Below, in pieces: positions 15,720-50,758 of a stretch of DNA of 64,000 bases. Location of the stretch: contig CACXQV010000002.1 in assembly GCA_902769875.1 (NCBI GenBank), positions 91,252 through 155,251 on the forward strand. The letters are read 5' to 3'. The position numbers were made by a program, and so were the translations under genes. The stretch's first letter is position 1; each line of letters opens with the position of its first letter. The notes beneath the pieces are model-generated. The model made no database searches, had not been told where the DNA came from, and saw only the letters and a program-made list of their open reading frames with translations. This DNA is from an uncultured Bacteroidia bacterium. Lineage in GTDB: Bacteria > Bacteroidota > Bacteroidia > Bacteroidales > F082.

Positions 15720-16115
15720 GTTGCTTCGGCAGGCTCAGCAACCATGCGACAGCCATATAGGGTTGGGTTTGTAGGGCTGTCGCATTGCGGCAGCCGAATG
15801 ATCGTATTGCGGCAGCCGCGTAAGATGTCCGTATGCCTGTCGGGGTGCTGCCAGTCGGGGTGCTGCCGTAGGTCGCGACCTACGGATAATGGAGTATGAC
15901 CCCGTTGGGGTCGCCCCTCATCCCACGCGACTCTCATTGCGGGCGAACCCTCATTCCGCGAAAGCGGAACCCTCATTCCGCGAAAGCGGAACCTTCATTG
16001 CGGGCGAAGACCCGCAATCTCTCGTTCATAAACCGTGAATATCAGCATTTGCAATGCGGGAATGAACGATAATCGGCAGGGATGTGTCTTTTCGGCAGGG
16101 GTTTCGTTTGTTTTT
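15720..16115. repeat. cluster of palindromic and tandem repeats
   Basis: No credible gene. In order: a TTCGGCAGGCTCAGC string (15724); an imperfect palindrome of the GGCTGCCGCA/TGCGACAGCCCT family, right arm at 15773-15796, with an extra half-copy at 15804-15818; a 20-bp perfect palindrome CCGTAGGTCG/CGACCTACGG at 15866-15885; GACCCC-GTT-GGGGTC at 15898-15912; and a 22-bp tandem unit containing CCGCGAAAGCGG at 15946-15967 and 15968-15989, with a partial third copy. All would form hairpins. The first family also occurs inside comB at 29638. Confidence 0.8.
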
Positions 16116-16239: not shown

Positions 16240-16414
16240 TGTGTTGGTATGCGTCAGCCACGTTTCACGTCGTCGAATCTCACTATTTGCGGCAGCCGTA
16301 TGGTCATACGCTGTGAGTGATGTCGCCTGCTTACTGATATGCCGTCCCAAGGGATGGGGCGGTGCTGGGGAAATCCTAAATAGAAAGAAAAAGCTGTTGT
16401 TTTGTCGTTTTGTT

Positions 16415-16422
16415 TAATTTTG
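16415..16422 (+). promoter_or_regulatory. -7 element of the Abi/HEPN gene
   Basis: TAATTTTG matches TAnnTTTG and ends 21 nt before the ATG at 16444. A TTG at 16397-16399 is only 15 nt upstream, so the -33 element is weak. Confidence 0.5.
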
Positions 16423-16443
16423 CCGTGCTTAAAAATGCTTAGG

Positions 16444-17133
16444 ATGAAGTATGGCGAATTTGTGGATGTAATTTCTCCTGAACGGATGTGCCGTTATGTC
16501 TCGGCGTGTGCGAACAACACCAAACGAGCCATGGCGTTGTATCGCTACAACATAAAGCTGTCGCAAGAAATGTATGCGATAATCAGTTGTTTTGAGGTGA
16601 CATTGAGAAACAAGATCAATAAGGAGATGAAGGCTAATTTTGGGAATGATTGGCTACGCGATTTCGTGTTGCCCGGTGGACGGTTTGATACCGATCCTCG
16701 AGTGGAGGGTACTCGGAAAATCATCAAAAAGGGATACGAAGGGTTGGTTCGGTGTCAGAGATATAGCCATACCAAGTTGCTGGCTGAGATGGAGTTTGGC
16801 GTTTGGAAATTCATGTTCAATAATGTTCAATACAGATTGTCAGGGCGTTGCTTGCTAAACATATTTCCGAACAAGCCGACTTCGACCCCGCAATTCCAAT
16901 ATGATAATGCATTTGTTTTTAATGCGTTGGATGTCATTAACAATATGCGTAATAGAATTGCACATCACGAACCAATATGCTTTGGTAATGACGGAAAGAT
17001 TGATACACAAAGTGTTATGTTTTGCTATATGCGTATTATGCAACTCTTCCAATGGATGAATGTTGATGCCAATGCGTTGCTTTATGGAATGAATCATGTG
17101 GTTGAGGTCAGCAACAAAGTCATGAAAATCTGA
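16444..17133 (+). CDS. Abi-family abortive infection protein with HEPN motif
   Basis: Predicted RNA-targeting defence or toxin protein of the Abi (AbiD/AbiF-like, Abi_2) family. The N-terminal part, MKYGEFVDVISPERMCRYVS, with RAMALYRYNIKLSQEMY and ISCFEVTLRNKI, is typical of Bacteroidota members. Near the C-terminus MRNRIAHHEPI contains R169-x4-H174, the RNase motif of HEPN domains. Length 229 residues; the ATG at 16435 would add three. It is A/T-rich and flanked in direct orientation by two nearly identical 124-bp repeats, so the gene may have moved as a cassette. Abi proteins of this type often act alone. Confidence 0.8.
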   Translation: MKYGEFVDVISPERMCRYVSACANNTKRAMALYRYNIKLSQEMYAIISCFEVTLRNKINKEMKANFGNDWLRDFVLPGGRFDTDPRVEGTRKIIKKGYEGLVRCQRYSHTKLLAEMEFGVWKFMFNNVQYRLSGRCLLNIFPNKPTSTPQFQYDNAFVFNALDVINNMRNRIAHHEPICFGNDGKIDTQSVMFCYMRIMQLFQWMNVDANALLYGMNHVVEVSNKVMKI

Positions 17134-29232: not shown

Positions 29233-30000
29233 ATGAAAATCAGTGTCATTCCCACCGCCCAACAAGCCCAAGGTGCCGATTTCAGCGGCCAAACTGCCGT
29301 TGTGATTGATGTACTGCGGGCCACGAGTGTCATTACAACGGCCTTGGTCAATGGTGCGTGCGAAGTCATCCCAGTGAAAACCGTCGAGGAGGCACAAAGC
29401 GTTTATGCTCAATGCGATGCGGCCAAAACCCTTCGCGGCGGCGAACGCAACGCGCTGAAGATTGCCGGCTTCGATATGGGTAACTCGCCGTTGGAATACA
29501 CGGAAGATAAAGTAAGTGGGAAAACCGTCATTTTGACCACCACCAACGGCACTGTTGCAATGAATAACGTGAAAGGTGCCGAAGGGGTGGTTTTGGCGTG
29601 TTTCAGGAATGCGGAGGCGGTTTCGGATTACATTTTTCGGCTGCCGCAATGCGACAGCCCTGCACCTGATCTTGTAGGGCTGTCGCACTATGGCAGCCGC
29701 GATGTTGCCATCGTCTGCGCCGGCACCGAAGGCCGTTTTTCCTTGGACGACGGCCTATGTGCCGGAATGCTGATAGCATCGTTAGGCCAGAAAACCGAAG
29801 TCGAGACCGATGATTTGGGCTGTTTGTTAAGTCGATTTTACTCCCAAAACAAGGATTGTCTTTGCGAAGCGCTTTCGGGTTGTTTCCATTTGAAACGTTT
29901 GGTTTCGTTGGGGTTTGGTGACGATGTACGGTTCTGTCTTGAAACAAATCGTGTCGCAAAAGTTCCCGTTTTTGACGGCGGGAGAATTGTTGTCCGATAA
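29233..30000 (+). CDS. comB: ComB-like 2-phosphosulfolactate phosphatase with an inserted palindrome
   Basis: The family removes phosphate from 2-phosphosulfolactate; in methanogens this is a coenzyme M step, whereas in Bacteroidota the role is unclear and may lie in sulpholactate-type metabolism. The 255 residues include VVIDVLRATSVITTAL, GGERNALKIAGFDMGNSP, VILTTTNGT and VCAGTEGRFSLDDGLCAG, all family motifs. Between SDYI and RDVAIVC, residues about 136-156 are an extra segment encoded by a 62-bp palindromic repeat (29638-29699) that is also present between genes at 15773. The gene stays open. Its stop overlaps the next start by 1 bp. Confidence 0.85.
   Translation: MKISVIPTAQQAQGADFSGQTAVVIDVLRATSVITTALVNGACEVIPVKTVEEAQSVYAQCDAAKTLRGGERNALKIAGFDMGNSPLEYTEDKVSGKTVILTTTNGTVAMNNVKGAEGVVLACFRNAEAVSDYIFRLPQCDSPAPDLVGLSHYGSRDVAIVCAGTEGRFSLDDGLCAGMLIASLGQKTEVETDDLGCLLSRFYSQNKDCLCEALSGCFHLKRLVSLGFGDDVRFCLETNRVAKVPVFDGGRIVVR
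29638..29699. repeat. in-frame 62-bp palindromic element inside comB
   Basis: Left arm 29638-29661, 14-nt loop, right arm 29676-29699; the arms are 24 bp and pair at 22 positions. The core is GGCTGCCGCA...TGCGACAGCCCT and its inverse. The right arm differs from the intergenic copy at 15773-15796 at two bases. It encodes RLPQCDSPAPDLVGLSHYGS without a stop codon. Confidence 0.9.
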
Positions 30001-37798: not shown

Positions 37799-40700
37799 TT
37801 AGATGACCATTTTCTGTATCTTCACTTTCTTGTTGTTCGTCAAACGTAGCAGGTACACGCCTTTGGCCACGCTCTGAAGCCGGTGACTGCTTTGTGTGCC
37901 GATGGCTTCCGTCTCCAAAAGACAACGGCCTTGTATGTCGAACACCTGCAACAGACCCTCTCCGTTGACTATCAACTCGTCCTCGAAAAAGAAGGCGAAA
38001 TGATCATCGTCGTCCTCCTCGGGGTCATCGGGTTCGTCGGGGTCGTCAGGTTCTTCGTTGTTTTCGCACCTGAACACAAGTTTGAAGCGCGACTTGTAGT
38101 CGGTCGTCTTGCTTTCAAACTTGTACTCGTCGTTGGTCAGGCAGTCGACGTCCACGCCTGCTATGTTGTCGATGAGGTGGAGGTAGCTGAACTCGCCGTG
38201 GCGGGTGTTCCAGTTCAGGGTGAACACGCCGTCCTCGTTGGGCACGAAGCGCACGGGCACCACATTGATGCCCACGGGCGTGAACAGCGTCTGGAAACTC
38301 TCGTTCTCAAGGTGGGCATAAATCAAGCCCTTGCTCTCGTGCAGCTTCTCCATCTTGTGGCCGCCTCCAAACTCGGGACGGTTCACCTCAACCGTCGTCA
38401 GGTCGCGTTTGCCGTCCTCGTCGAAACAAAGCAGGTTCACCAAAGGATAGTTCACATTGCCTCGGTAGGGTGAGATGACATTATTTTCTTCTTTATTGTT
38501 GACATTATTGATAATGATCTTTCCAGCCACGCGCATATTATCCGTGAATGTAAGATTTCCAGTACTGGCAGCTTTCACAAAGAAGCCTTGGTGTGGATGG
38601 ATGTATCGGCTGGCTGTGTAAGGCCAATTATAGGATTGGTTATGAACATAATAGATGTAACGGTATTCCTGATCGGGTCCCTGACTGTCATCGGCAACAG
38701 CGTATTCATCTAATGCCAGTTTCGCGCCGTTTGTTGCCGTTGTTGTCGACCCCGTTCCATTAACTTCGACAAACTTGTCGAAATCCAAGTAACTCTGGTA
38801 AGGGTTGCCTATCATATTGAGAGTGCGCCAATCCACAGTATAGTTATAAGAGCCGTGCCCGTGGGGAGGCAGATTCCAGCCTATGGGCGTATTGGTCACC
38901 TTGGCAGGGATAGTGCCTGTGTTCAGTATGCCGTCGGCCATCATCATCGACTCTGAGGAAAGCGCCATCAGGTAGCCCTTGCCGGCTGGCATAGTCACAT
39001 CGTTGAAATACCTCTCGTTGCCTGACTTGTCGTAGCCAATCCTGTAATGCAGATCGGTTCTAAAATCCACATCCCAGTGCCAGTGGTCTTGAATGGCATT
39101 TGTACCCTCGCGCTTGTAGTTGATCCAGTGGTAGTAATACTCATTGTACTCGTACAGGTCGAAGAAGCCGGCCACGCCTTGGCTGTTCGCAATGTTCGAG
39201 TCCCTCCATCTACCATACGGAGTGTTGGTGGGGAAGTAGCCTATTTTGTCCGGTCTGTAACTTCCGTCTTGTCCCGTCGGTGACGGCGACGTATTGTCAG
39301 ACTGATACCATTTGGTTACCGGCGGATCCCATATAGTTCTATCAATCCAAGTGTTATGTTTATGGCTGGAATGTTGTTCTTGTTCTCCATCTGGCCATAC
39401 AATTGTATCAACGTATTCTCTATCTGTCGATGTAAGGTACTCTATCCCAATGGGAACATCCTGTATCGCCGAGGAGAACAAGTGCCAGTTCGGGTCGTCC
39501 GTTTGGTCAGTAGCGCCCTTCCTTGCGTTCCTGATGGTCACTCCAGCACGGGCGGTCAATTCGGCACCGGCAGGCTGGGTGATGCCTATGTCCTCGTGGA
39601 TATGGAGCGGCACATTGACGTTGCCGGTAATTCTGACAGCATCGTAGACAGCTGGACTTTGATCTGTCGCGGGCGTTATTACAGGCTGCACATCATACAA
39701 GTACATGGCGGAGCGGGGTGTGTACTTATTACTTATAGTGTCAAATCTCTTCGCTGTCCACATGTCGTTGATGTTGTCCTCATACAACAGATAGATTTCG
39801 TCTTTCGAACCTACACTGTTGAAGGTCTTGTTTCCGATTTTGTTCATTGTGTCAAGCATGGGCACGGGATAGTCGTCGTTGATATGGCTGGCCATGGTGC
39901 GTGTCCATTTTGCATAGGAGGGCGTGGTCTTGTTTGCTGTGTCCACCCAATGGTTCAGTGCATTCATCAGGCCGCCAATCAAGGTGTCGTTGGTTTTGGC
40001 ATCAACATATTTTGTATAGTCTGACTCTACAAGAGTTCCGTCTGATTTATGCATCTTATGGTCGCGGTGCTTGAAGCCGTACTTGCCGCTGTAGCGTATA
40101 GTGGCTGTATAAGTGCCATGGCCAATGGGATCAGTGCCAGCTTTGATGTACTTGCCTCCATCGGTAACACTAGGAGAATCCATCTTTTCCTTGGCTCCGT
40201 AGCAATACTTGATGTTAGCGTCAGTGTTGTTCGTTCCAGCCAACCAGCCGAAGATGCTCTGATTGGAACTGTTTTTTGGCTCGCTGCCTTGCAAACGGCT
40301 ATAGCAGTTCTCCACCAAGCCGTTGTTCACACCCACGAGGCCGCCAAAAAAGATTACTGTGTCTTTAACCGCCTCTGGAGATGATGGAACCCATGTTTGT
40401 GTTTCTTCATTATAAGTACAACTGGTCCAAATCGTATCGCTGTTGTCATAACTAATGTCGGGGAACTTCGGGTTACTGAAACTGTTGACGAGAGTGTCGG
40501 AGGCACCTAAATAACCCACAAGACCGCCAATGTGTCTGACCGTACCCTTTATTTCTGGCATAGCCATGGAAGAATGGATGATTGCAGGGTTTGTAGCAGT
40601 GCCTTTGACTTGACCGGCAAGGCCGCCCACATACGAAGTGGCTTTGTTGGCTCTCGCAAGGTCGACAACAAAACGTGCCTCGCTGGCCCTGACCGTTGAA

Positions 40701-43700
40701 CCGCCCTCCATAAGGCCGGCAATTCCGCCTATATGGTACTGTTTCGAATTGTCGTTCGTCCTGAACGAGGATGCGTCCACAAAAGTGTTCTCCACCACGG
40801 CCCCTTCTTCAAGGTCGCCGAACAATCCGTATTTCAGCATGCCGGAGATGTAGCGGCAGTCGAGGCCCGTGATGAGATGGCCTTGGCCATTGAATTTGCC
40901 CCTGAAGCCTAAATTGTCGCCAGCGTTTTCTGGATTCGTGTCATCAATATCCCTGAAGATGGTGTTGACCCCGGTCTGCCTTTCGCGCACCGAGCCAATG
41001 GGCACCCAAAGGTATTCGGTCATGTCGAGGTCGGCTTCCAAGACGGCTTCAAGCTCTGCATAACTGTCGTCAGAATATTGGTCTCTTGTGCCGTTCAGCC
41101 TGTTCACATGGGCCGAGAACCAAGCCAAGCCTTTTTCGTCCTTGATGTGCCAAAGGCCATCACCATCAACGACATAGTGTGAATCGTCACGCTCTGGAAG
41201 TTCGTGTCCGTACACGTCATAAAGGGCAGGGTCGTATTTCACGATGGGCGTGGTCCAGCAGTCCCAAAGGTAGATGAAGTCGAACCTGAACGGGTCGTCG
41301 TCTTCACGGGCATGGATGGCAATGTAGGCGCGAGCATCGTCGAAGATGGAGGCATTCGACGAAGCTGAGTTCATGTTGTCGGTAATGGCATACATCCAGT
41401 CCTCAGTGTTTATTGCTTGTCCTTCAATAGTATCTCTATACACGCCGAAATTCTTAAAGGAAAACGCCTCATCTATCTTTCTTGAGGTGGTTACGACTGG
41501 TATCTTGCCTTTGGTCACACTGAAGCCGAGGCTCGAATACACCTTGTCCCCTTCATTGGAAATATCGGACAGCAGAGCAATGACGCGAGTCAGATTGTTG
41601 TTGGCTGTGCTACTGTCCGCAGGGTTCAAGCCTTGATTGTCGGTGTAATCCTTATAAGCATCAAAATATTTGGGGTTTTCCTTGTTGGTGGGATAGGGCA
41701 AAAACACGTTGTTGCGTGAGTAGTATAGTTGGTCGTAATCGCCATGCTCGTATTCCGCTTCTGTGAAGTTCGTCATGGCATAGTTGCGGTTCACAAAGAG
41801 GTGGTGTGTACCCAAAGTGTCGTCGATGTTGTCGCCTATATACAGCTTGCCATCGAGATAGATGCCGGCACCACCGCCAACGATTGTGTCCTTGTCCGTG
41901 CCATTACTGGCCGGAACCAAGTTGAAGTCGGGCGTGTGGTTGCCGTTCACCTCACAGCTTCCCTTCATGTGCATGATGGAGCCTTCTTCAAGGTAGATGC
42001 CACCGCCGTTGCCACCTACTCCCTCAATGTCCTTTGCCTCATTCAAGTTGATGTTGCCGCTGGAGAACCTGATTTTGCCACCACTTGCGATATAAATGCC
42101 GCCGCCGTTTTTGGCATTGTTGTGATTGACGGAGGGCAAGCATTCGTAATCAACGTATGAGCGGTTGGTGAATGTTTGGACATTGCCGAAACCAAACGTA
42201 AGGTTGCTGTTGTTGGAAGCGTAGGTTCGGATATAGCAGGTGTCGTTGTCTGTCAAGTTCAAGCCAGACAAATCCAAGTCCTTGCTGTATTGCGTACCCA
42301 CTGCTGGAACAGGAGTAATCGGGACGAATACACCCGGATTGTCTGAGGCATTATAATCAGCCCCGACTTTGCTGTACCAAATGCCAGCTGCGGTAAGGTC
42401 ATTGGAGCCTTGTTTCAACACTGTGCCGCTAACGGTGGCACCTGTAGCAGTAATGTTGGTCAAGGCATGGGTGGCTACAGAAGGATTTTCGTAAATAAAG
42501 TTGCGAATTTCGCCGAAGCCGTAGGTGGTTCCGCTATTGTTGGTGGCATAGGCGCGGATGTAATAGGTCTTGTCTGTTTCAATGCTAAGGTCAACGGAAA
42601 AAGCAGTATTAATATCAGGTATTGAAGCTGCCGGAACAAAGCTACCCGGATTGCTTGTGGCATCATAATCGGGGCCAACGGTGCTGTACCAAATGCCCGC
42701 CTCAGTAAGCTCGTCTGAACCTGCATTGGTCACGGTGCCGCCTGCGGTGACCTCAGTGGCCGAAATGTTGGTCAAGGCATGGGTGGCTACAGTAGGATTT
42801 TCGTAAATGAAGTTGCGAACTTCGCCGAAGCCGTAGGTGGTTCCGTCATTGTTGGTGGCATAGGCACGGATGTAATAGATCATGTCTGTTTCAACGCTAA
42901 GGCTAACGTAAAATGCAGTATTAATTTCAGGTATTGAAGCTGCCGAAACAAAGCTACCCGCGTTGTTTGTGGCATCATAATCGGGGCCAACGGTGCTGTA
43001 CCAAATGCCCGCCTCAGTAAGCCCTGAAGAACCTGCATCGGTCACGGTGCCATTGACGGTAAGGTCCAATACCGCCCCAGACATGGTGTAAGCCATATTC
43101 TCGCCTGTGGTCACGGTAGGCTCGCCGTCGCGGTTGTCAAACTCCTCGTCCCAGTCCCAAGGCTCGCGGGCGGGGGCGGGATAGATGTCGCGCGGGCCGG
43201 AGGTGGTTCCTCCTCTGCCAAAGTTAGCCACCAGATTGCGGTCGCTATTGGCTGTAAAGGTATAGGAAGCAGACGTGGAAACCTCCGTTCCGCCTTCCGT
43301 CCAATTCGTAAACGTGTAACCTGTATTGGCCGTGGCGGTCACAGTGACATTAGCACCATAGGTATATGTGCCGCTGCCCGTAACCGTGCCGCCTTCCTCT
43401 GGGTTGGCAATTGCGGAAATCGTATAATTGTTGATTTCGAAATTAGCCACATAATTGGCGTTGTCTGTTACAGTGATGGTGTAATTGTCTTCGCCTGATA
43501 CAACACTGCCGTTCAGTGTCCAGTTGACGAAACTATAGCCGGTGTTAGCCGTGGCTGTCAAGGTGACCTCCGTGCCATAGTTGTAAGTGCCACCTCCTGT
43601 CACCGTGCCGTAGCCTGTTGGATTGGCAGCGACCTCAATCGTATAGGTGTTAATCGTGAAGTTGGCCTGCAAAGTACGGTCGGTAGTGACATTGAAAGAG

Positions 43701-46700
43701 TAAGAGGCATCTGTGGATAATACGCTACTATCCTCGGTCCAATTTGTGAAGGTGTATCCCACGTTGGGAGTGGCAACGGCGGTGTAGTGGCTGCTCTCAA
43801 GGCTTGCATAACTTCCGCTAACTGCGCCGCCAGCGGTGGGATTGGCCACCAAAGTCACACTGTGTTCCCTCGTGCTGAACGTAGTGTCGGCACCGTAAGC
43901 GATATTGCCTTCGCTGTTGATGGAATAGGCACGATAATGGTAAGCGGTGTTTTGCGAAAGCCCTGTTGCCGTCAGGTTGAAATCGAATGTGTTGGCATTG
44001 GTGGTGTTGATGGTTTGCTCCACATAGTTGGTGGCGCCGCCTTGTCCCCTCGTGGGGTTTGCCGATGCGCCCCAGCACACGCCGTACAAGCCGTTGGGGT
44101 TTGTGTTGCTGGGGTCATGCACGAGGTGGCCTTCCGAGTCGCGGCTGCCGATTCTGCCAGAGAGCGTGGCAGCATTGTGTAAAGTGGCAGTCGCTCCTCT
44201 GGTGAACATAATGGGCAGGGTGATGAAACTCGCCTCGTCACTGTAGACGATGTCGTTGAGGGAGTAAACCCCGTTGACGGTGTCGTCGACGGCCGTGGCG
44301 GTGCTGGCGTAGGCTCTCACATAGTATTTCGTGTTGCTGTGTATTTGCGTGATGTATGTGTTGCAAGCAACAGCCGTATTCCCCGAAATTGGAGGTGCAG
44401 GCGTATCGCAATCCTTGAAATCGGTGTTTGACACATCGGACTTGCGCCGGGAAGGTTCGTGCAAAACGCTCCAGCACACGCCGTAGGTGTCCACTCGATC
44501 CGTAGTGTCGGCTGAATGTGGAGTGACCTCGAAGTTGACGCGCGCCCTGAAGATGTAGTCATTATGGCTTTGGTCGACAATGATGAATTTCACACTGTCA
44601 ATGGAAGTGATTGTATCGGCAGGCTTGTCGTACTCGGTCATGAATGTCACTACTTGGCAAATGTGTGTGCCTTCTGAATTGGTGGCGTATGCATTCACCC
44701 AATATCTCTGGTGTGGAATCAAATTTGTAATGGTAATGGTGTCAATGCCATTAATCAACGTGTCGCCGTCGATTTGGATGCTATCTGTCAGTGCGCCATT
44801 TGCAGCAATTCTGCCGTACCTGATGCCATAGTCGCTAATGACGCCGCCGCCATCGTTTACTATTCTGTAAACCACGTCCACCTTATTATATGTGACACTA
44901 TCAGGCACAACGTATGGCTCAATATAATACCTGATTTCCGATACCTCCACGTTGGGCTGCGTGATAGGCAGCGCGGTGAAGTTGTAGTCGTTGCCGTATG
45001 AATACTTGGTGACATTGTTTTCGACATAGGTAGCATAGGCTTTCAGATAGTAGGTGGTTCCAGGGGTTAAGCCACTCAAATCCACCGTGTATATGCCATT
45101 CGAGTAGTTATTGGATGAAATGTATGTATCCGTGTTTTCCAAATGGACACCATAGTCTGTCGTGTTTTCATATCCGCTGTAAATCTCGCAGTGGATGGTG
45201 GCCGAGTTTTGGGTGATGCCCGTAATCCTGAAGGCACGCACCACAGGGGCACCATTAAGATAAGGTGTGTAGTGCGGTGTAGGCGTGGTTATGCTGTAGT
45301 CGGTAATATCCGAAGCACTCGTCACATTGTTTTCGACATAAGTGGCATAGGCACGAACATAAGCGCAGATGTTTTGGCGTGCACCGCGATACGAAGCGGT
45401 GAAGGTGAGATTGTCACTTCCAAGTGTTCCAGGGGTGGTATGGTCAGAAATGAGCTCTGGGTCGTCATCGGTGCTCCAAACGAAGCCATAGCCTTTGATG
45501 TAATTGTTCCCTGTTGAATCAGTGAGATTTGATCCTGGGGGCATGGTGAACCTCGCAGTTACAACAATAATGCTATCATTTTCGATATAATGCGATACAA
45601 TTACAGGATTGGTTCCCATGTAAGGTGTGTTCTTCAGCGTAGTGAACTCAACCTCGTTGCCTTCCGATGTGCCACTGCTATTAGTGGCGTAGGCGCAAGC
45701 ATAGTATTTTTGGTTAGGAAGAAGCTGGGTTGCGCCGTTGGCGGGGTCTCTAAGGCTGTCGACGGTGAAGAAGTTGGTGGTGATTGTGGAAGGGATATAC
45801 AAAGGTGCAGGGGGAGTGGACTCTCCATGGATTGTGTCTCTCCAAATCTTCACGCCTCTCGCGGTGATGGCTGAGGTACCCGGGTCCATGATTTTTCCGC
45901 TGCCTTGTACGCTGGTGCTGGTGATATTACTCACCGCACCCGATAACACCAAAGGCTTGGCGGAATAGGTGACGAACTCCATTTCTTCGCTGTAGCCCCT
46001 CTTGGTTATGGTATCGTTCTCGTCGTTCTTGTATTGGTACTCGAAGAAGGCCTTCACTTGGTAGATTGTGTCGGGTTCTATGCCTTGGGGAATGGTGTCG
46101 TTTTTGGAGGGTATCGTGATTCTTTCGCAGGCTGGTTCGCCTTGGCTGGAAACGTAGTTTGATGGGGTTTCGCCAAAGTAGACCGTATCGGCTTCGGCTT
46201 CATGCTGTTTTTTCCACCAGATGATGCCGCGCTTGACGCTGTTTTCCACAATGTCTGAATACTTGCCTTGGTCCACGAGGTGGTAGTGGACGGTGGCGTG
46301 TTGTCCGGCGCCTTCTCCTATGATGATGTTTCCGACGGAATCGGTGTTTCTTTTCACTTCCGCGTCAACGAGGAGGACGATGGGGTCGGGGTTTTCTTCG
46401 CGTTCGTGGATGTCGAACACGCCGCCGCCGCTGTACACGCCGCCGCCGTTGCCCAACGTGGCGCTGTTCAGCTCGATTTTGCCGCCGTTCAAGGTGATGT
46501 TGCCGTTGGCGATGTAAACGCCGCCGCCGTCGCCGTTGAGTGCTTGGTTGCTGGCGATGCGGTCGCCGTTGAGGTCGATGTTGCCCTTTTGGTTGTTGAT
46601 GCCGCCGCCGTTGCGGTGTGCGCTGTTGTTTTCGATGACGGTGATTTTCGCGCCCATGGGGGGTTCCCTTTTGGTGCTGGGGCCGGTGGTGATGTTGCCT

Positions 46701-49700
46701 TCAAAGGTATAGATGCCGCCGCCGTCGAGTTCCACGGCGCGGTTGCCTTTCACTTCGCAGCCGTAGAGGAGGATGTTGCCTTGGTGGTTGTTGATGCCAC
46801 CGCCGTTGATGTTGGCTTCGTTGTCGCGGATGTTGGAGTAGTGGGCGTAGATGTTGCCGTATTTCAGGTAGATGCCTCCGCCGCGTCCTGTGGGGTCGGC
46901 AGCGGTGCCGTCTTGTCCACGGGTCTTGTTTTGCACCACGTCAGAGCTAAGCAGGCGGATGGTGTAGCCCAAGCCTTTGTTGTCGTTGGCGTGGGGGCCT
47001 TCGCAGAAGATGCCGCCGCCGTTGCCTAAGGTGGCGGTGTTGTTGTAGATGGTGGCGTGGCGCACGTCCACACGTCCCGTATGGTTGTTGAAGGCACCGC
47101 CGTTTATCTTGGCGATGTTGTTGAACACCTTGGTGCCCTCGTTGAGGGTGACGTTGTCGAGTTTGGTGGAGGGGAACTGGAACAGGTCGATGTCGCCCAC
47201 GAAAGTGTAGGCGCCGCCGCCGTGGCCTTCGAGGGCGCTGTTGTTGGTGAGGATGCCGCCGTGCAGGATGATGTCGCCGGCGTGGTTGTTGAGGCCGCCG
47301 CCGTTCTCGTTGGCCGTGTTGTCGTGGATGAGGGCGTTGTAGGTGATGATGGTGCCCGAGTTGGCATAGAGGCCGCCGCCTTTCTTGGCCGTGTTGAAGG
47401 CGATTTCGATTTGGTCGTCCATCTCTTTCTTGTTCACCCAAATGGTGCCCGTGCGGGTGTCGGCGCCGCCACCGTTGACGGCAGCCGTGTTGTGCGTGAT
47501 TTTCGACTCGATGCGCTGTATGTTGCCTGCGGTTACCACATAGTCCTCGATGTCGATGTCGCCTTGGTTGGTGTAGATGCCGCCGCCGCTGTTGCCGGCT
47601 TGGTTGCCCTTGCCCTCGGCACCGCCGATGAGACAGCCGTTCACGTCGATGTTACCACTGTGGTTGTTGATGCCGCCGCCGTTGTATTGGGCCTTGTTGC
47701 CTTGTATGGCCACGTCGGTGACGGTGATGACGCCTTGCTGCAAATAAATACCGCCGCCGCTGCCCATGGTCACGTTGTTGACGGGAGAGCCGTTGCCTTT
47801 CGCCTCATTATTGAAAAGGTCGACATGGGTCATGGTGATGTATTCCGCTTCGGCAGAGCTGCCCATGCAGAAGGTGCCGCCGCCGCTGCCCATTCCACCG
47901 TCGCCGGCCACGTTGCCGATAATCTGGATGCGGTCGTTTTTGCTCTTGCCGCGCACGGTGATGAAGCCGCTGTGGGTGTTGAGGCCGCCGCCGTTCAGTT
48001 TGGCCTTGTTGCCGTTGATTCTTGAGGGTTGGCGCTCTTCGCCCGTGATGTTGATGTCGATGTCGCCTAAGTTGGTGTAGATGCCGCCGCCGCCGCCGTT
48101 GGCTGTGTTGCTGAGCAGCCATCCATTGATGATGGAAACTTTACCTTGGTACAAATAGATGCCGCCGCCGTGGTTTCCAGAAGTGTTTCCTTCGAGTCTG
48201 ACGCGGCGCATGCGGATGTCGTAGGCTGATGAGGTGGTGTCGCCCTTGCAGTAGATGCCGCCGCCATCGCCGTTAGTGGTAGAGTTCCCGGAGATTTGCA
48301 CGCGATAGGTGCTGTCGCCGTCGAAAGCGCCAAAGGCCACCACTTTTCCGGCCCAGTCGTAGATGCCGCCGCCATTGCCTTTTGCCGTGTTGTAGTTGAT
48401 CTGCGAAGGGGTGCCCGTCGATTGTTCCTTGTGGTTGATGAGCACGTCGCCCGAATTCACATAGATGCCGCCGCCGTCGCCGTTGGCTTGGTTGTAAGAA
48501 ACCTTGGAGCTCAGCATGGTGACCGTACCCATGTTCACGTAGACGCCGCCGCCCGAATCACCGGCTTTGTTGCCCTTAATGATGGTATCGAGGCCAATGG
48601 TGGCGCCTTTCATATCGATGTTGCCCCGATTGAGGAACACACCGCCGCCGTCGCCGTTGGAAGCGGAATTCCTTTGGAAGGTAGGCGAGTACGAACCCTC
48701 TTTGAAAATGCTTACCGTTCCGGTTTCAACATAGAGGCCGCCGCCATCAATTTTTGCAATGTTGTTGTCGATGTTGGAATGGTCGTACACGGTGGTGGTA
48801 ACCTGTGAGGTCACTCCATTGTAATTGAGGGGGTAGGCTTCCACATAGATGCCGCCGCCGTAGTCGGCTGAGTCATTCTGGATGAGCATTTCTTCGTTGC
48901 CTCCCGCAACGCCGATGATGACGTCGACGTTTTGTGGCTTGACACGATTAGGATAAGAAGTCATTTCAAGTGGTAAGGATACACTATCAGGGGTGTAGAT
49001 GGCCACGCCGCCACCCTTGCCCTTGATAATGGTATCGTTGGAAGTGACTTTGACTTTGTTGCCGGAGATTTCGCCTTTGTCGAGCAGGCACTCAACCCTG
49101 AAGTAGGTCGTTTGTTCGTTTCTCGTGATAAACACACCACCGCCTAAACCAACTGCTTTCGGGTTTGAGGGCAAGTAGAAATCGTTTGGAAGGTCGAACC
49201 CTAAGGCCGTGTTGTTGATGACTTTGGCACCACCAAGCTGGAACTTGAGAGTGAAAGCGGTGCTGTCGGGGGCGAACCAAATGTAACCATTAGGGCCGTT
49301 GGGATCCTGTGGCTCGCTAATATAACGGTTTTGCATCCTGATGCCGTCGATGGCCACGCCGCCGCCGTTTTTTAGAGCCACATTGTTGGAAATGATGGTG
49401 CCGGGGTCTAAGTCAAGGACGCTATGTTCGGGAACCAAATCAGGGGTGCCATCTCCGAAATCGGTATAGGTGGAAAGATAGATGCCGCCTCCATCGCCCT
49501 GCGTGCGGTTGTTTCGTATGATGCTATTTCTTACTTCGGCTGGGCCTTTCAGCAGCAGGCCCCCACCGCCTTTCACATTGTTATCGAGGCAGGTGAAATT
49601 CCTTTCAATGAGGCAACTGTCAACCTTTAGTTTACTGCTGGTCGAGGCACCATGCCAGCGCACGGGGCATCCATAGTTGTGTTTCATGTGTGTTTTCTTG

Positions 49701-50758
49701 ATGGCAAGGGTTACCTTGTTGTTGCCGACGGTTCTGATGGCACCTTGGGCGCCGTTGATGACTACGGTGTTCCCAACTGCAAGGTTATAGGCACTGTAAG
49801 TGTTCTCGATTTTGCAGTTTTGGATGATGGCATCGCGGTTCAAGTTGCCGACACTGGTGGTCCTCGAATCGGCCTGCATTCTGAGGACAGGCGATCCGGT
49901 GCTGCTCTTGCCGCCGATATGGTTGAAATGGCAATGGTCGAACTTGAGGTAGAGAGCCACGGTTTTATTTACAGAATTACTACCAGCGTTGAGATACACT
50001 TGTGCCATGCATGCGTTGCCATACGAGGAGCTGAATTTTTGCACGGTGACGTTCTCCAAAGTCAGCGATCCATGCTGCAACCTGAACATGCCGTTGCCTA
50101 CCACTTGGCCGCCTGTTGCTGTCACTTTGGGATATAGGGTAACGCTATCATCAACAGCTGTTAACGTGGGGCCGCTGCCATCGATGACGAAGTTGTTGCT
50201 GAAGTCGTAAATGAAGTCCGCTATGTTTTCATTGGTTCCAGTAGATGGCGCATTTCCACGGATGGTGATGGTGTGCTCTTCTCTATTGGGATTGTCCTGT
50301 ACGGGAATATAGAAAGCCATGCGTTGGCCATTGGCGGACGGAATGTCACCGATTCTCAAGGTCGGGTTGAGGGAATCGTGGGCAACAGTTCCCGAAGGGG
50401 GGGTCCCAAGTTCCATGATCAGGTGTGCCTGTACTCCGTCATTGGCATTCAAATAAATCTGGCCCGTCATGTTGATGGTTCTCGTATTCTCGAAAATAAT
50501 CTTGTAAGTGCCGCTGGTAATCGAGAATTGACCAATCGATGTCCGGTTCGTTGCAACTGCACCCGTAGTTCCATCTTTGTAAACGTCGAAGTTGTTGCCT
50601 GTTGTTCCCCTTGAACGCAGGCGGTAGGTGCCTGACCCGTTGGGTGTCCAAGGCCCTGACGCTTGTCCCCAGGCCATGTTGGCGCCAAGGAGCATCAAGG
50701 CAAGCACCAAGAATTGCTTCATTCTGTTTCTGTAGTTTTGCGTCGTAGCGTATTTCAT
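37799..50758 (-). CDS. giant 4,319-residue T9SS-exported beta-helix surface protein
   Basis: Very large exported adhesin-like protein. Order by approximate residue: signal peptide 1-31 (an alternative start at M13); a long parallel beta-helix to about 1450 with some 31 Pmp-like GGGIY/GGGVF/GGGLN motifs; fibronectin-type beta modules 1590-2290; three Listeria/Bacteroides-type repeats 2294-2520 (GYTFTNWTEGG, ANTGYSFVNWTLNG); three 104-residue repeats 2556-2869 (LTEAGIWYSTVGPDYDAT); a short second beta-helix 2880-2960; a GLUG-like part 3210-3515; beta-rich domains; an acidic Pro/Asp/Glu linker 4233-4252; and a T9SS type A sorting domain 4253-4319 (GLLQVFDIQGRCLLE, KGVYLLRLTNNKKVKIQKMV). Probably displayed on the cell surface. 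Its promoter is at 51068-51097; the tailed protein at 37500 follows. Confidence 0.88.
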   Translation of the reverse strand: MKYATTQNYRNRMKQFLVLALMLLGANMAWGQASGPWTPNGSGTYRLRSRGTTGNNFDVYKDGTTGAVATNRTSIGQFSITSGTYKIIFENTRTINMTGQIYLNANDGVQAHLIMELGTPPSGTVAHDSLNPTLRIGDIPSANGQRMAFYIPVQDNPNREEHTITIRGNAPSTGTNENIADFIYDFSNNFVIDGSGPTLTAVDDSVTLYPKVTATGGQVVGNGMFRLQHGSLTLENVTVQKFSSSYGNACMAQVYLNAGSNSVNKTVALYLKFDHCHFNHIGGKSSTGSPVLRMQADSRTTSVGNLNRDAIIQNCKIENTYSAYNLAVGNTVVINGAQGAIRTVGNNKVTLAIKKTHMKHNYGCPVRWHGASTSSKLKVDSCLIERNFTCLDNNVKGGGGLLLKGPAEVRNSIIRNNRTQGDGGGIYLSTYTDFGDGTPDLVPEHSVLDLDPGTIISNNVALKNGGGVAIDGIRMQNRYISEPQDPNGPNGYIWFAPDSTAFTLKFQLGGAKVINNTALGFDLPNDFYLPSNPKAVGLGGGVFITRNEQTTYFRVECLLDKGEISGNKVKVTSNDTIIKGKGGGVAIYTPDSVSLPLEMTSYPNRVKPQNVDVIIGVAGGNEEMLIQNDSADYGGGIYVEAYPLNYNGVTSQVTTTVYDHSNIDNNIAKIDGGGLYVETGTVSIFKEGSYSPTFQRNSASNGDGGGVFLNRGNIDMKGATIGLDTIIKGNKAGDSGGGVYVNMGTVTMLSSKVSYNQANGDGGGIYVNSGDVLINHKEQSTGTPSQINYNTAKGNGGGIYDWAGKVVAFGAFDGDSTYRVQISGNSTTNGDGGGIYCKGDTTSSAYDIRMRRVRLEGNTSGNHGGGIYLYQGKVSIINGWLLSNTANGGGGGIYTNLGDIDINITGEERQPSRINGNKAKLNGGGLNTHSGFITVRGKSKNDRIQIIGNVAGDGGMGSGGGTFCMGSSAEAEYITMTHVDLFNNEAKGNGSPVNNVTMGSGGGIYLQQGVITVTDVAIQGNKAQYNGGGINNHSGNIDVNGCLIGGAEGKGNQAGNSGGGIYTNQGDIDIEDYVVTAGNIQRIESKITHNTAAVNGGGADTRTGTIWVNKKEMDDQIEIAFNTAKKGGGLYANSGTIITYNALIHDNTANENGGGLNNHAGDIILHGGILTNNSALEGHGGGAYTFVGDIDLFQFPSTKLDNVTLNEGTKVFNNIAKINGGAFNNHTGRVDVRHATIYNNTATLGNGGGIFCEGPHANDNKGLGYTIRLLSSDVVQNKTRGQDGTAADPTGRGGGIYLKYGNIYAHYSNIRDNEANINGGGINNHQGNILLYGCEVKGNRAVELDGGGIYTFEGNITTGPSTKREPPMGAKITVIENNSAHRNGGGINNQKGNIDLNGDRIASNQALNGDGGGVYIANGNITLNGGKIELNSATLGNGGGVYSGGGVFDIHEREENPDPIVLLVDAEVKRNTDSVGNIIIGEGAGQHATVHYHLVDQGKYSDIVENSVKRGIIWWKKQHEAEADTVYFGETPSNYVSSQGEPACERITIPSKNDTIPQGIEPDTIYQVKAFFEYQYKNDENDTITKRGYSEEMEFVTYSAKPLVLSGAVSNITSTSVQGSGKIMDPGTSAITARGVKIWRDTIHGESTPPAPLYIPSTITTNFFTVDSLRDPANGATQLLPNQKYYACAYATNSSGTSEGNEVEFTTLKNTPYMGTNPVIVSHYIENDSIIVVTARFTMPPGSNLTDSTGNNYIKGYGFVWSTDDDPELISDHTTPGTLGSDNLTFTASYRGARQNICAYVRAYATYVENNVTSASDITDYSITTPTPHYTPYLNGAPVVRAFRITGITQNSATIHCEIYSGYENTTDYGVHLENTDTYISSNNYSNGIYTVDLSGLTPGTTYYLKAYATYVENNVTKYSYGNDYNFTALPITQPNVEVSEIRYYIEPYVVPDSVTYNKVDVVYRIVNDGGGVISDYGIRYGRIAANGALTDSIQIDGDTLINGIDTITITNLIPHQRYWVNAYATNSEGTHICQVVTFMTEYDKPADTITSIDSVKFIIVDQSHNDYIFRARVNFEVTPHSADTTDRVDTYGVCWSVLHEPSRRKSDVSNTDFKDCDTPAPPISGNTAVACNTYITQIHSNTKYYVRAYASTATAVDDTVNGVYSLNDIVYSDEASFITLPIMFTRGATATLHNAATLSGRIGSRDSEGHLVHDPSNTNPNGLYGVCWGASANPTRGQGGATNYVEQTINTTNANTFDFNLTATGLSQNTAYHYRAYSINSEGNIAYGADTTFSTREHSVTLVANPTAGGAVSGSYASLESSHYTAVATPNVGYTFTNWTEDSSVLSTDASYSFNVTTDRTLQANFTINTYTIEVAANPTGYGTVTGGGTYNYGTEVTLTATANTGYSFVNWTLNGSVVSGEDNYTITVTDNANYVANFEINNYTISAIANPEEGGTVTGSGTYTYGANVTVTATANTGYTFTNWTEGGTEVSTSASYTFTANSDRNLVANFGRGGTTSGPRDIYPAPAREPWDWDEEFDNRDGEPTVTTGENMAYTMSGAVLDLTVNGTVTDAGSSGLTEAGIWYSTVGPDYDATNNAGSFVSAASIPEINTAFYVSLSVETDMIYYIRAYATNNDGTTYGFGEVRNFIYENPTVATHALTNISATEVTAGGTVTNAGSDELTEAGIWYSTVGPDYDATSNPGSFVPAASIPDINTAFSVDLSIETDKTYYIRAYATNNSGTTYGFGEIRNFIYENPSVATHALTNITATGATVSGTVLKQGSNDLTAAGIWYSKVGADYNASDNPGVFVPITPVPAVGTQYSKDLDLSGLNLTDNDTCYIRTYASNNSNLTFGFGNVQTFTNRSYVDYECLPSVNHNNAKNGGGIYIASGGKIRFSSGNINLNEAKDIEGVGGNGGGIYLEEGSIMHMKGSCEVNGNHTPDFNLVPASNGTDKDTIVGGGAGIYLDGKLYIGDNIDDTLGTHHLFVNRNYAMTNFTEAEYEHGDYDQLYYSRNNVFLPYPTNKENPKYFDAYKDYTDNQGLNPADSSTANNNLTRVIALLSDISNEGDKVYSSLGFSVTKGKIPVVTTSRKIDEAFSFKNFGVYRDTIEGQAINTEDWMYAITDNMNSASSNASIFDDARAYIAIHAREDDDPFRFDFIYLWDCWTTPIVKYDPALYDVYGHELPERDDSHYVVDGDGLWHIKDEKGLAWFSAHVNRLNGTRDQYSDDSYAELEAVLEADLDMTEYLWVPIGSVRERQTGVNTIFRDIDDTNPENAGDNLGFRGKFNGQGHLITGLDCRYISGMLKYGLFGDLEEGAVVENTFVDASSFRTNDNSKQYHIGGIAGLMEGGSTVRASEARFVVDLARANKATSYVGGLAGQVKGTATNPAIIHSSMAMPEIKGTVRHIGGLVGYLGASDTLVNSFSNPKFPDISYDNSDTIWTSCTYNEETQTWVPSSPEAVKDTVIFFGGLVGVNNGLVENCYSRLQGSEPKNSSNQSIFGWLAGTNNTDANIKYCYGAKEKMDSPSVTDGGKYIKAGTDPIGHGTYTATIRYSGKYGFKHRDHKMHKSDGTLVESDYTKYVDAKTNDTLIGGLMNALNHWVDTANKTTPSYAKWTRTMASHINDDYPVPMLDTMNKIGNKTFNSVGSKDEIYLLYEDNINDMWTAKRFDTISNKYTPRSAMYLYDVQPVITPATDQSPAVYDAVRITGNVNVPLHIHEDIGITQPAGAELTARAGVTIRNARKGATDQTDDPNWHLFSSAIQDVPIGIEYLTSTDREYVDTIVWPDGEQEQHSSHKHNTWIDRTIWDPPVTKWYQSDNTSPSPTGQDGSYRPDKIGYFPTNTPYGRWRDSNIANSQGVAGFFDLYEYNEYYYHWINYKREGTNAIQDHWHWDVDFRTDLHYRIGYDKSGNERYFNDVTMPAGKGYLMALSSESMMMADGILNTGTIPAKVTNTPIGWNLPPHGHGSYNYTVDWRTLNMIGNPYQSYLDFDKFVEVNGTGSTTTATNGAKLALDEYAVADDSQGPDQEYRYIYYVHNQSYNWPYTASRYIHPHQGFFVKAASTGNLTFTDNMRVAGKIIINNVNNKEENNVISPYRGNVNYPLVNLLCFDEDGKRDLTTVEVNRPEFGGGHKMEKLHESKGLIYAHLENESFQTLFTPVGINVVPVRFVPNEDGVFTLNWNTRHGEFSYLHLIDNIAGVDVDCLTNDEYKFESKTTDYKSRFKLVFRCENNEEPDDPDEPDDPEEDDDDHFAFFFEDELIVNGEGLLQVFDIQGRCLLETEAIGTQSSHRLQSVAKGVYLLRLTNNKKVKIQKMVI
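42461..43055. repeat. 312-bp tandem repeat inside the giant gene
   Basis: Copies begin CAAGGCATGGGTGGCTAC at 42461 and 42773 (period 312 bp) and are nearly identical at DNA level over long stretches; a third, diverged copy lies at 42150-42460. They encode the 104-residue LTEAGIWYSTVG modules. High DNA identity points to recent duplication. Confidence 0.85.

Follow-up and report, generated by a model that had tools for sequence, protein, structure and literature searches.

The comB gene of this uncultured Bacteroidales genome carries a palindromic DNA element within its reading frame, which raises the questions of what the element is, how it came to lie inside a protein-coding gene, and what has become of it in related species. 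We pursued these questions in the window, here the whole 64,000-nucleotide stretch of DNA analysed, and in the genomes of relatives. Our joint reading, which we hold to be very probable, is that the element is a TT dimer (REPIN-like) of GTAG REPs belonging to a RAYT/REP system that resembles subclass 2.4 (group 4), that it was copied into comB by a RAYT, and that in-frame losses followed.

The host gene is a recognisable member of its family, as its product matches Pfam PF04029 (2-ph_phosp, ComB) at 2.6e-72, PDB 1vr0 at 4.2e-44 and NCBIfam NF002054 at 2.8e-73, the last with a score of 246.3 bits that lies below the model cut-off of 330. The initial annotation described an in-frame insertion, and the open frame at 29233-30000 does continue through the whole hairpin element, which is read as ComB residues 136-156 (peptide RLPQCDSPAPDLVGLSHYGSR, from which the tryptic peptide LPQCDSPAPDLVGLSHYGSR derives). 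Two properties would have kept the frame open: a net change in length divisible by three, and units free of stops in the register used. The number of added residues proved smaller than the roughly 21 first proposed, amounting to a net gain of about 17-18: the phmmer gap against 1vr0 spans 17 residues, and the site holds 22 residues in our assembly (G000) versus 4 in the empty congener G014. In an alignment-based structure model of ComB (mean pLDDT 91.5), values below 50 occur only at residues 141-154, between helix 124-135 and strand 157-162, and the insert is predicted to form a disordered loop. Nineteen columns are invariant across 29 aligned ComB proteins, G000 included. ComB with the insert is likely still to work, and the peptide contributed by the insert is probably not essential to it.

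At the DNA level the element is a hairpin, as was initially reported, with arms of 27 rather than 24 nt (29638-29664 and 29673-29699, 85% complementary, 8 nt loop). Its fold as DNA reaches -26.7 kcal/mol (z -7.5), with equally stable shuffles in 0 of 200. Both arms are inverted copies of a 25-nt GTAG-tagged REP, GTAGGGCTGTCRYAYYRYGGCAGCC, which alone forms a hairpin comprising a GTAG foot, nine stem pairs and a three-base loop; the foot of the left comB unit is GCAG, not GTAG (Table 1). The same arm had been noted between genes at 15773-15796, and a unit of the same family is indeed found there together with a degenerate second arm, the hairpin of this unit (15772-15796) folding at -9.2 kcal/mol. 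A 14-nt arm core, picked after the element had been seen, has 4 matches in the window at up to 2 mismatches, compared with a shuffle mean of 0.37, and 4 was reached in 0 of 100 shuffles. Just downstream of the intergenic unit, 15834-15990 contains short direct repeats and the further palindromes GTAGGTCGCGACCTAC and CCTCATTCCGCGAAAGCGGAA, and an ORF downstream of this REP-rich region (16402-17133) matches Pfam Abi_2 (Abi-like protein) at 1e-8. The minus strand of the window also holds a single open frame of 4319 codons at 37799-50758.

Table 1. Positions of the comB gene, its REP dimer and the related intergenic repeat within the window.
Feature	Position in window	Strand	Basis
comB (2-phosphosulfolactate phosphatase family), 255 aa, host of the insert	29233..30000	+	ORF and Pfam PF04029
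REP dimer, GTAG feet inward ("TT" dimer, naming of PMC3733652)	29638..29699		inverted repeat, fold, comparison with relatives
Left REP unit GCAGGGCTGTCGCATTGCGGCAGCC, 1 mismatch to family pattern, read RLPQCDSPA	29639..29663 (G000:C2:120890-120914)	-	pattern search
Dimer spacer, 10 nt	29664..29673		distance between units
Right REP unit GTAGGGCTGTCGCACTATGGCAGCC, 0 mismatches to degenerate pattern, read VGLSHYGSR	29674..29698 (G000:C2:120925-120949)	+	pattern search
Intergenic unit belonging to this REP family, GTAGGGCTGTCGCATTGCGGCAGCC, 0 mismatches to degenerate pattern	15771..15795 (G000:C2:107022-107046)	+	pattern search
Truncated partner arm of the intergenic unit, giving a degenerate TT dimer	15744..15757	-	inverted repeat

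The unit belongs to a dispersed family. Its stem is formed by pairs 5-25 to 13-17; position 10-20 is a T-G pair in all but 5 of the 95 units. The two top stem pairs covary: both are Watson-Crick in 85 of 95 units, whereas 10000 shuffles gave 31.4 on average and never more than 47. These 95 units, found in our own assembly at up to 3 mismatches (reversed-pattern control, 0), occupy 65 sites, comprising 37 single, 26 double and 2 triple occurrences. Neighbouring units are arranged with feet outward (HH) in 21 cases (in one of them, both neighbours are the same palindromic unit, scored once per strand), with feet inward (TT) in 6 and in the same orientation in 3. Most sites lie outside coding genes, with 9-10 of the 65 inside verified genes.

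Within the genus, the unit is present at up to 1 mismatch in 54 of 99 genomes (control 0 in each), and 42 of the 99, here called REP-rich, have at least 6 units. When a 76-base element was used as the query, 19 of 60 genomes (own included) matched at E 0.001, representing 2 of 25 genera. The exact unit also occurs in at least 119 stretches of named genome contigs; neighbouring units among the 119 stretches listed are feet-outward in 41 cases, feet-inward in 11 and same-orientation in 2. Titles among the matches listed (80 of at least 119) read Bacteroidales, Bacteroidia, Bacteroidetes, Paludibacteraceae and bacterium F082, with many rumen or ruminant-gut names.

A transposase associated with this family was recognised by reading the REP sites with spanning ORFs. 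The RAYT of our own assembly (L066, C30:24163-24444) is represented by its N-terminal part only, which includes the HuH motif and has its broken end at a REP unit, and a second REP unit lies just upstream of the gene; a full-length RAYT of this clade was not found in this assembly, which is 83% complete. Using tblastn, RAYT relatives were found in six named loci (L204, L207, L219, L240, L264 and L286), all chosen solely for containing a REP unit. The full-length RAYTs among them read NH[IV]H, WQ and a Y...NP motif, and REPs lie in frame after the HuH motif in five of the six, all but L240.

The link between the REP family and one RAYT clade extends across the genus. Some RAYT match is present in 69 of 99 genomes, and the search returned 30 loci, which we divided by best local identity to the query into 22 at 52% or above and 8 below, a cut that was set post hoc. 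A REP unit lies inside or near the RAYT gene at 21 of the 22 closer loci, L448 being the exception, versus 0 of the 8 more distant ones (P about 1.5e-6). The genomes of all 22 closer loci are among the 42 REP-rich ones, an overlap confounded by kinship. If units inside the gene are disregarded and only the 700 bp searched around it are considered, the counts are 19 of 22 versus 0 of 8, and moving L445 (50%, no unit) to the closer group gives 21 of 23 versus 0 of 7; in all these comparisons the query includes REP-coded residues, which slightly raise the identity of carriers. Another RAYT group, found with L154 as query, is present in 19 of 99 genomes, each of which is REP-positive. Because this second group is likewise confined to REP-positive genomes, co-occurrence alone cannot single out the cognate enzyme.

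Motifs and fold further characterise the enzyme. The query is annotated as a REP-associated tyrosine transposase in NCBIfam (E 7e-14), with scores for the RAYT model NF047646 of 51.9 and 59.3 bits that do not pass the curated cut-off of 80, and its Pfam Y1_Tnp match is just over its cut-off. Its structure model is of modest quality (mean pLDDT 69, with a low-scoring linker), and the first fold match is PDB 4er8, a RAYT bound to a REP hairpin (E 8.1e-6). NH[IFV]H and WQ motifs are present in 18 of 18 rows of the RAYT alignment, and the Y motif of the 12 closest rows reads YIQNNP in 4, YVQNNP in 3, YIQHNP in 4 and YIQSNP in 1, the last three being one residue off YIxNNP. REP units lie inside the gene between HuH and Y at L428 and L430-L436, and REP-coded peptide is visible in the RAYTs of L204, L207 and L219 and in the first 8 alignment rows. 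The enzyme is thus RAYT-like by motif, fold and REP link, and stands outside the equivalog model NF047646.

Several other transposase candidates were set aside. The six PF01797 matches of our own assembly have no comB-type unit (up to 3 mismatches) at any locus, and the five shorter ones among the six, L118-L122, have other palindromes nearby. The next search, in 36 genomes of the genus with our own included, brought the total to 55 loci (L118-L172), and a comB-type unit was found at only L131, L153 and L155, on both sides of the gene in none. The RAYT group of L154 was also rejected as the cognate enzyme, the three loci examined carrying other palindromes around the gene. These loci have features of their own. 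The five Y1_Tnp genes at L118-L122 (C22, C4, C7, C49 and C64) each lie among other palindromic repeat families, and several of those palindromes yield, when translated, repeated peptides within the transposase or next to it. L123 (C39:1161-1337) is a weak Y1_Tnp match in a 1026-aa frame that, by eye, resembles a large DNA methylase or restriction protein, and long frames similar to it, with a Y1_Tnp match, occur in G007 and G018. A third GTAG family, TGTAGGGACACACCGCGTGTGTCCGCCG, is found near the sole PF01797 match of G022 (L154:2716-2807).

The comB insertion is one of several in-frame insertions in the genome. Of the 65 REP sites in our assembly, 25 fall within ORFs that are 110 aa or longer and extend 25 aa beyond both sides, and the longest spanning ORF per site was compared with Pfam. 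For nine of them the unit falls inside a gene with a family match, a tenth is the broken RAYT (NCBIfam E 4.9e-5) and 14 have no Pfam match; an abhydrolase ORF (L407) was left uncounted as an insertion, its unit lying upstream of the likely start. The nine genes are comB, DUF2851, mfd, nqrF, a polyprenyl synthetase on each of two contigs, an outer membrane efflux protein and two secreted C-terminal-sorting-domain proteins, one of which scores 25.6 bits against a cut-off of 27. Comparison with solved structures places a gap at the insert in NqrF, in one polyprenyl synthetase and in the IleRS of named locus L228, and the Mfd insert falls in a stretch that has no alignment to a solved structure. 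Among the named loci, the insert occurs in ileS (L228, L280), nqrF (L184, L205), DUF2851 (L217) and polyprenyl synthetase (L228, L265). One reading register is shared by 13 of the 14 units in the nine own genes, giving VGLSxxGSR forward or RLPxCDSPT in reverse, and the RAYT-internal REPs are read in the same register. The two polyprenyl synthetase genes (L394 on C114, L408 on C2) are diverged from one another and have a REP dimer after ELMQGS in both; C114 may derive from another strain or species in the bin, for which 5.7% contamination is estimated.

To follow the comB site itself, we searched the 99 genomes of the genus and found comB at E 1e-20 in 16, our own included, which were aligned with 13 genes from other families of the order. 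The ComB match of G028 amounts to a translated REP within an open frame of 78 aa and was not counted as ComB, and second ComB-like matches of G041 and G049 stayed outside the alignment. Reading frames are open in all aligned genes, and occupancy of the site is graded. The TT dimer is present in G000, G022 and G071, the right unit alone in G018, G101, G098 and G095 and, decayed, in G094, and the left unit alone in G121. The site is empty in the congeners G014, G088, G113 and G087 and in 13 of 13 aligned genes from other families. The finding that would have refuted the initial annotation, the same residues in ComB homologues from distant genera, was therefore not made in these 13 genes. In a comB tree built without residues 131-161, all carriers fall into one clade of 12 rows with moderate support (93/81), and the empty congeners fall outside it. 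The three dimer carriers form a clade (93/89), as do four of the right-unit carriers (95/88). G118 and G030 have no recognisable unit at the site, yet both lie inside the carrier clade.

A different kind of occupant is found in G115, where ATAGAGACGTCACAATGTGGTGTTTCT lies at the position held by the REP elsewhere (L179, around base 1199). This 27-mer differs at 3 of 27 bases from GTAGAGACG units that flank a more distant RAYT, L449, on both sides. With the consensus derived from 12 GTAGAGACG-type units it agrees at 21 of 26 bases, where the best match in the window reaches 19 of 26 and the next 17. With the comB family it agrees at only 15 of 27 bases, a level also reached by 363 of 63973 window 27-mers. 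By sequence resemblance, the G115 unit probably belongs to this second, double-foot type REP family.

The simplest reading of the series is one gain at comB followed by in-frame losses. The stem subtypes complicate it: CACA is found in the left units of G022, G071 and G121 and in the single right units of G018, G101, G098, G095 and G094, and CGTA in the right units of G022 and G071. One insertion with simple loss of a half therefore fails to explain the single right units, unless the subtype changed or a second insertion occurred.

These subtype switches between carriers, together with the G115 unit, are what the main rival explanation would account for, namely that the comB site is a repeated target which has received several independent REP entries or in-place exchanges and not one ancient insertion in decay. 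It would likewise fit the similarity of the eight comB right units, which differ at 0-5 of 21 fixed positions, compared with differences of 38-53% at comB 4-fold sites in 22 of 28 pairs. The 21 positions were chosen since the remaining six vary across the whole family; at the 21, only 7 of 218 comB stretches vary as little as the units. The conservation is not clear-cut, however: when all 27 positions are used, 84 of 216 comB windows equal the units in conservation, and a test restricted to 4-fold sites is not significant, with 1093 of 20000 random sets as conserved as the unit, or 2470 of 20000 with the serine codon, such that holding of the comB units at consensus on the DNA level is favoured by one test of three. 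In other genes, too, units stay near consensus while 4-fold sites have diverged, a comparison biased by the selection of named loci for an exact unit match. The G115 unit may moreover be a decayed comB-family unit, given how many window 27-mers resemble that family equally well, and the tree fits one gain. We consider the repeated-target explanation possible but somewhat unlikely.

The same conservation could instead indicate that the element is kept for a job, either as a hairpin in comB mRNA or DNA (pausing, mRNA stability, protein binding) or as a peptide under selection. Besides the 21 fixed positions, which rank with the top 7 of 218 comB stretches, the eight right units largely retain their hairpin pairing: of 9 pairs, 6-8 are Watson-Crick, or 7-9 if GU is counted. 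This must be set against the tests on all positions and on 4-fold sites, neither of which was significant, the predicted disorder of the insert, the loss of halves in several species, the ComB proteins of four congeners and 13 other-family genomes that do without it, and the small share of family sites in verified genes, and we regard a retained function as improbable. The initial annotation had likened the element to Rickettsia palindromic elements (RPE). The likeness is apt in that both are palindromic, dispersed and in frame in several unrelated genes, but the kind is different, as the GTAG tag, the occurrence as singles and inverted dimers and the RAYT link are those of a RAYT/REP system. 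A true RPE, or a selfish repeat of RPE-like character that lacks a transposase of its own, is highly improbable in view of a tag other than CGTC, the linked RAYT clade and the Bacteroidales setting, a judgement made from these features, and as a label RPE proper is rejected on tag and transposase link. Least of all can the segment be ancestral ComB sequence, a reading to which we give almost no weight: homologues without the segment rule it out, namely four congeners, 13 other-family genomes and PDB 1vr0, and the same DNA family occurs at 64 other sites of the assembly.

Our preferred reading, a RAYT-copied REP dimer in later decay, finds close parallels in described systems. GTAG repeats, of which Di Nocera et al. 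2013 (PMC3733652) distinguish families 1-24, are short imperfect hairpins with a 5' GTAG, have stem subfamilies arising by complementary changes and occur as singles and as dimers, termed HH with GTAG outside and TT with GTAG inside; some units lie in frame in genes, including DNA repair and tRNA-related ones. The accessible text of that source places GTAG repeats in Proteobacteria, Cyanobacteria, Chloroflexi and the PVC group and names Bacteroidetes only for CGTC repeats, whereas the comB family, compared here by description, sits in rumen-type Bacteroidales. The same text counts the intragenic RPE-4 and RPE-6 as CGTC repeats, a tag that sets them apart from the GTAG-tagged comB family, and describes CGTC repeats as apparently without a dedicated transposase. 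The accessible account of RAYT subclass 2.4 (TnpA-REP, group 4; PMC6006769) agrees with our enzyme in the NH[IFV]H and WQ motifs, a variable insertion that separates HuH from Y, canonical REPs whose stem base has three G-C pairs alongside "double foot" REPs, REPs in frame inside the transposase, and occurrence in Bacteroidetes. It differs in that YIxNNP is exact in only 4 of 12 rows here, that the REP family is additionally in frame in housekeeping genes, and that the transposase of our own assembly is truncated. REPINs, as presented in the available part of Bertels and Rainey 2011 (PMC3116915), are likewise inverted REP doublets that form one hairpin and are linked to a RAYT, but are extragenic in Pseudomonas fluorescens, in contrast to the coding comB copy with its GTAG feet inside.

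RAYT/REP systems, intragenic REPs and REPs inside subclass 2.4 transposases are thus already described, at least in the accessible portions of PMC3733652 and PMC6006769. The new parts are the REP family, set apart by description, its host and the comB occupancy series. Among the literature matches listed, none concerns this REP family or an occupancy series like that of comB, and no paper reports GTAG REPs in frame in Bacteroidales housekeeping genes, in a search whose coverage leaves out most subscription journals.

In the mechanism we propose, the RAYT, a HuH/Y1 nuclease, would most likely recognise the GTAG hairpin in single-stranded DNA, by analogy with its E. coli relative, for which such recognition of the REP hairpin is stated in the accessible text of PMC6006769, and would spread REP dimers. 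One dimer may have been copied into a surface loop of ComB in the ancestor of the 12-species clade; the loop would have tolerated the insert, and later in-frame deletions would have left the left unit, the right unit or nothing. More generally, gene insertions would survive where a loop tolerates them and the frame remains open. In G115, the site would now be occupied by a unit that best fits the second REP family. What this account says of transposition, of target choice and of when the element entered comB is inference.

These observations show that uncultured ruminant-type Bacteroidales have a REP/RAYT pair whose insertions extend into the coding sequence of housekeeping genes, and one orthologous gene presents the dimer, each of its halves, probably another REP family and an empty site. 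We also entertain a more speculative and rather unlikely idea, that intragenic REP sites are docking places at which RAYTs renew or exchange units, of the same or another family, in place and nucleotide-exact, with the frame kept. If this is true, one protein loop would be rewritten repeatedly by mobile hairpins, and the comB site would be an example. Through the comB series, the entry of hairpins into proteins, their persistence and their in-place exchange become testable.
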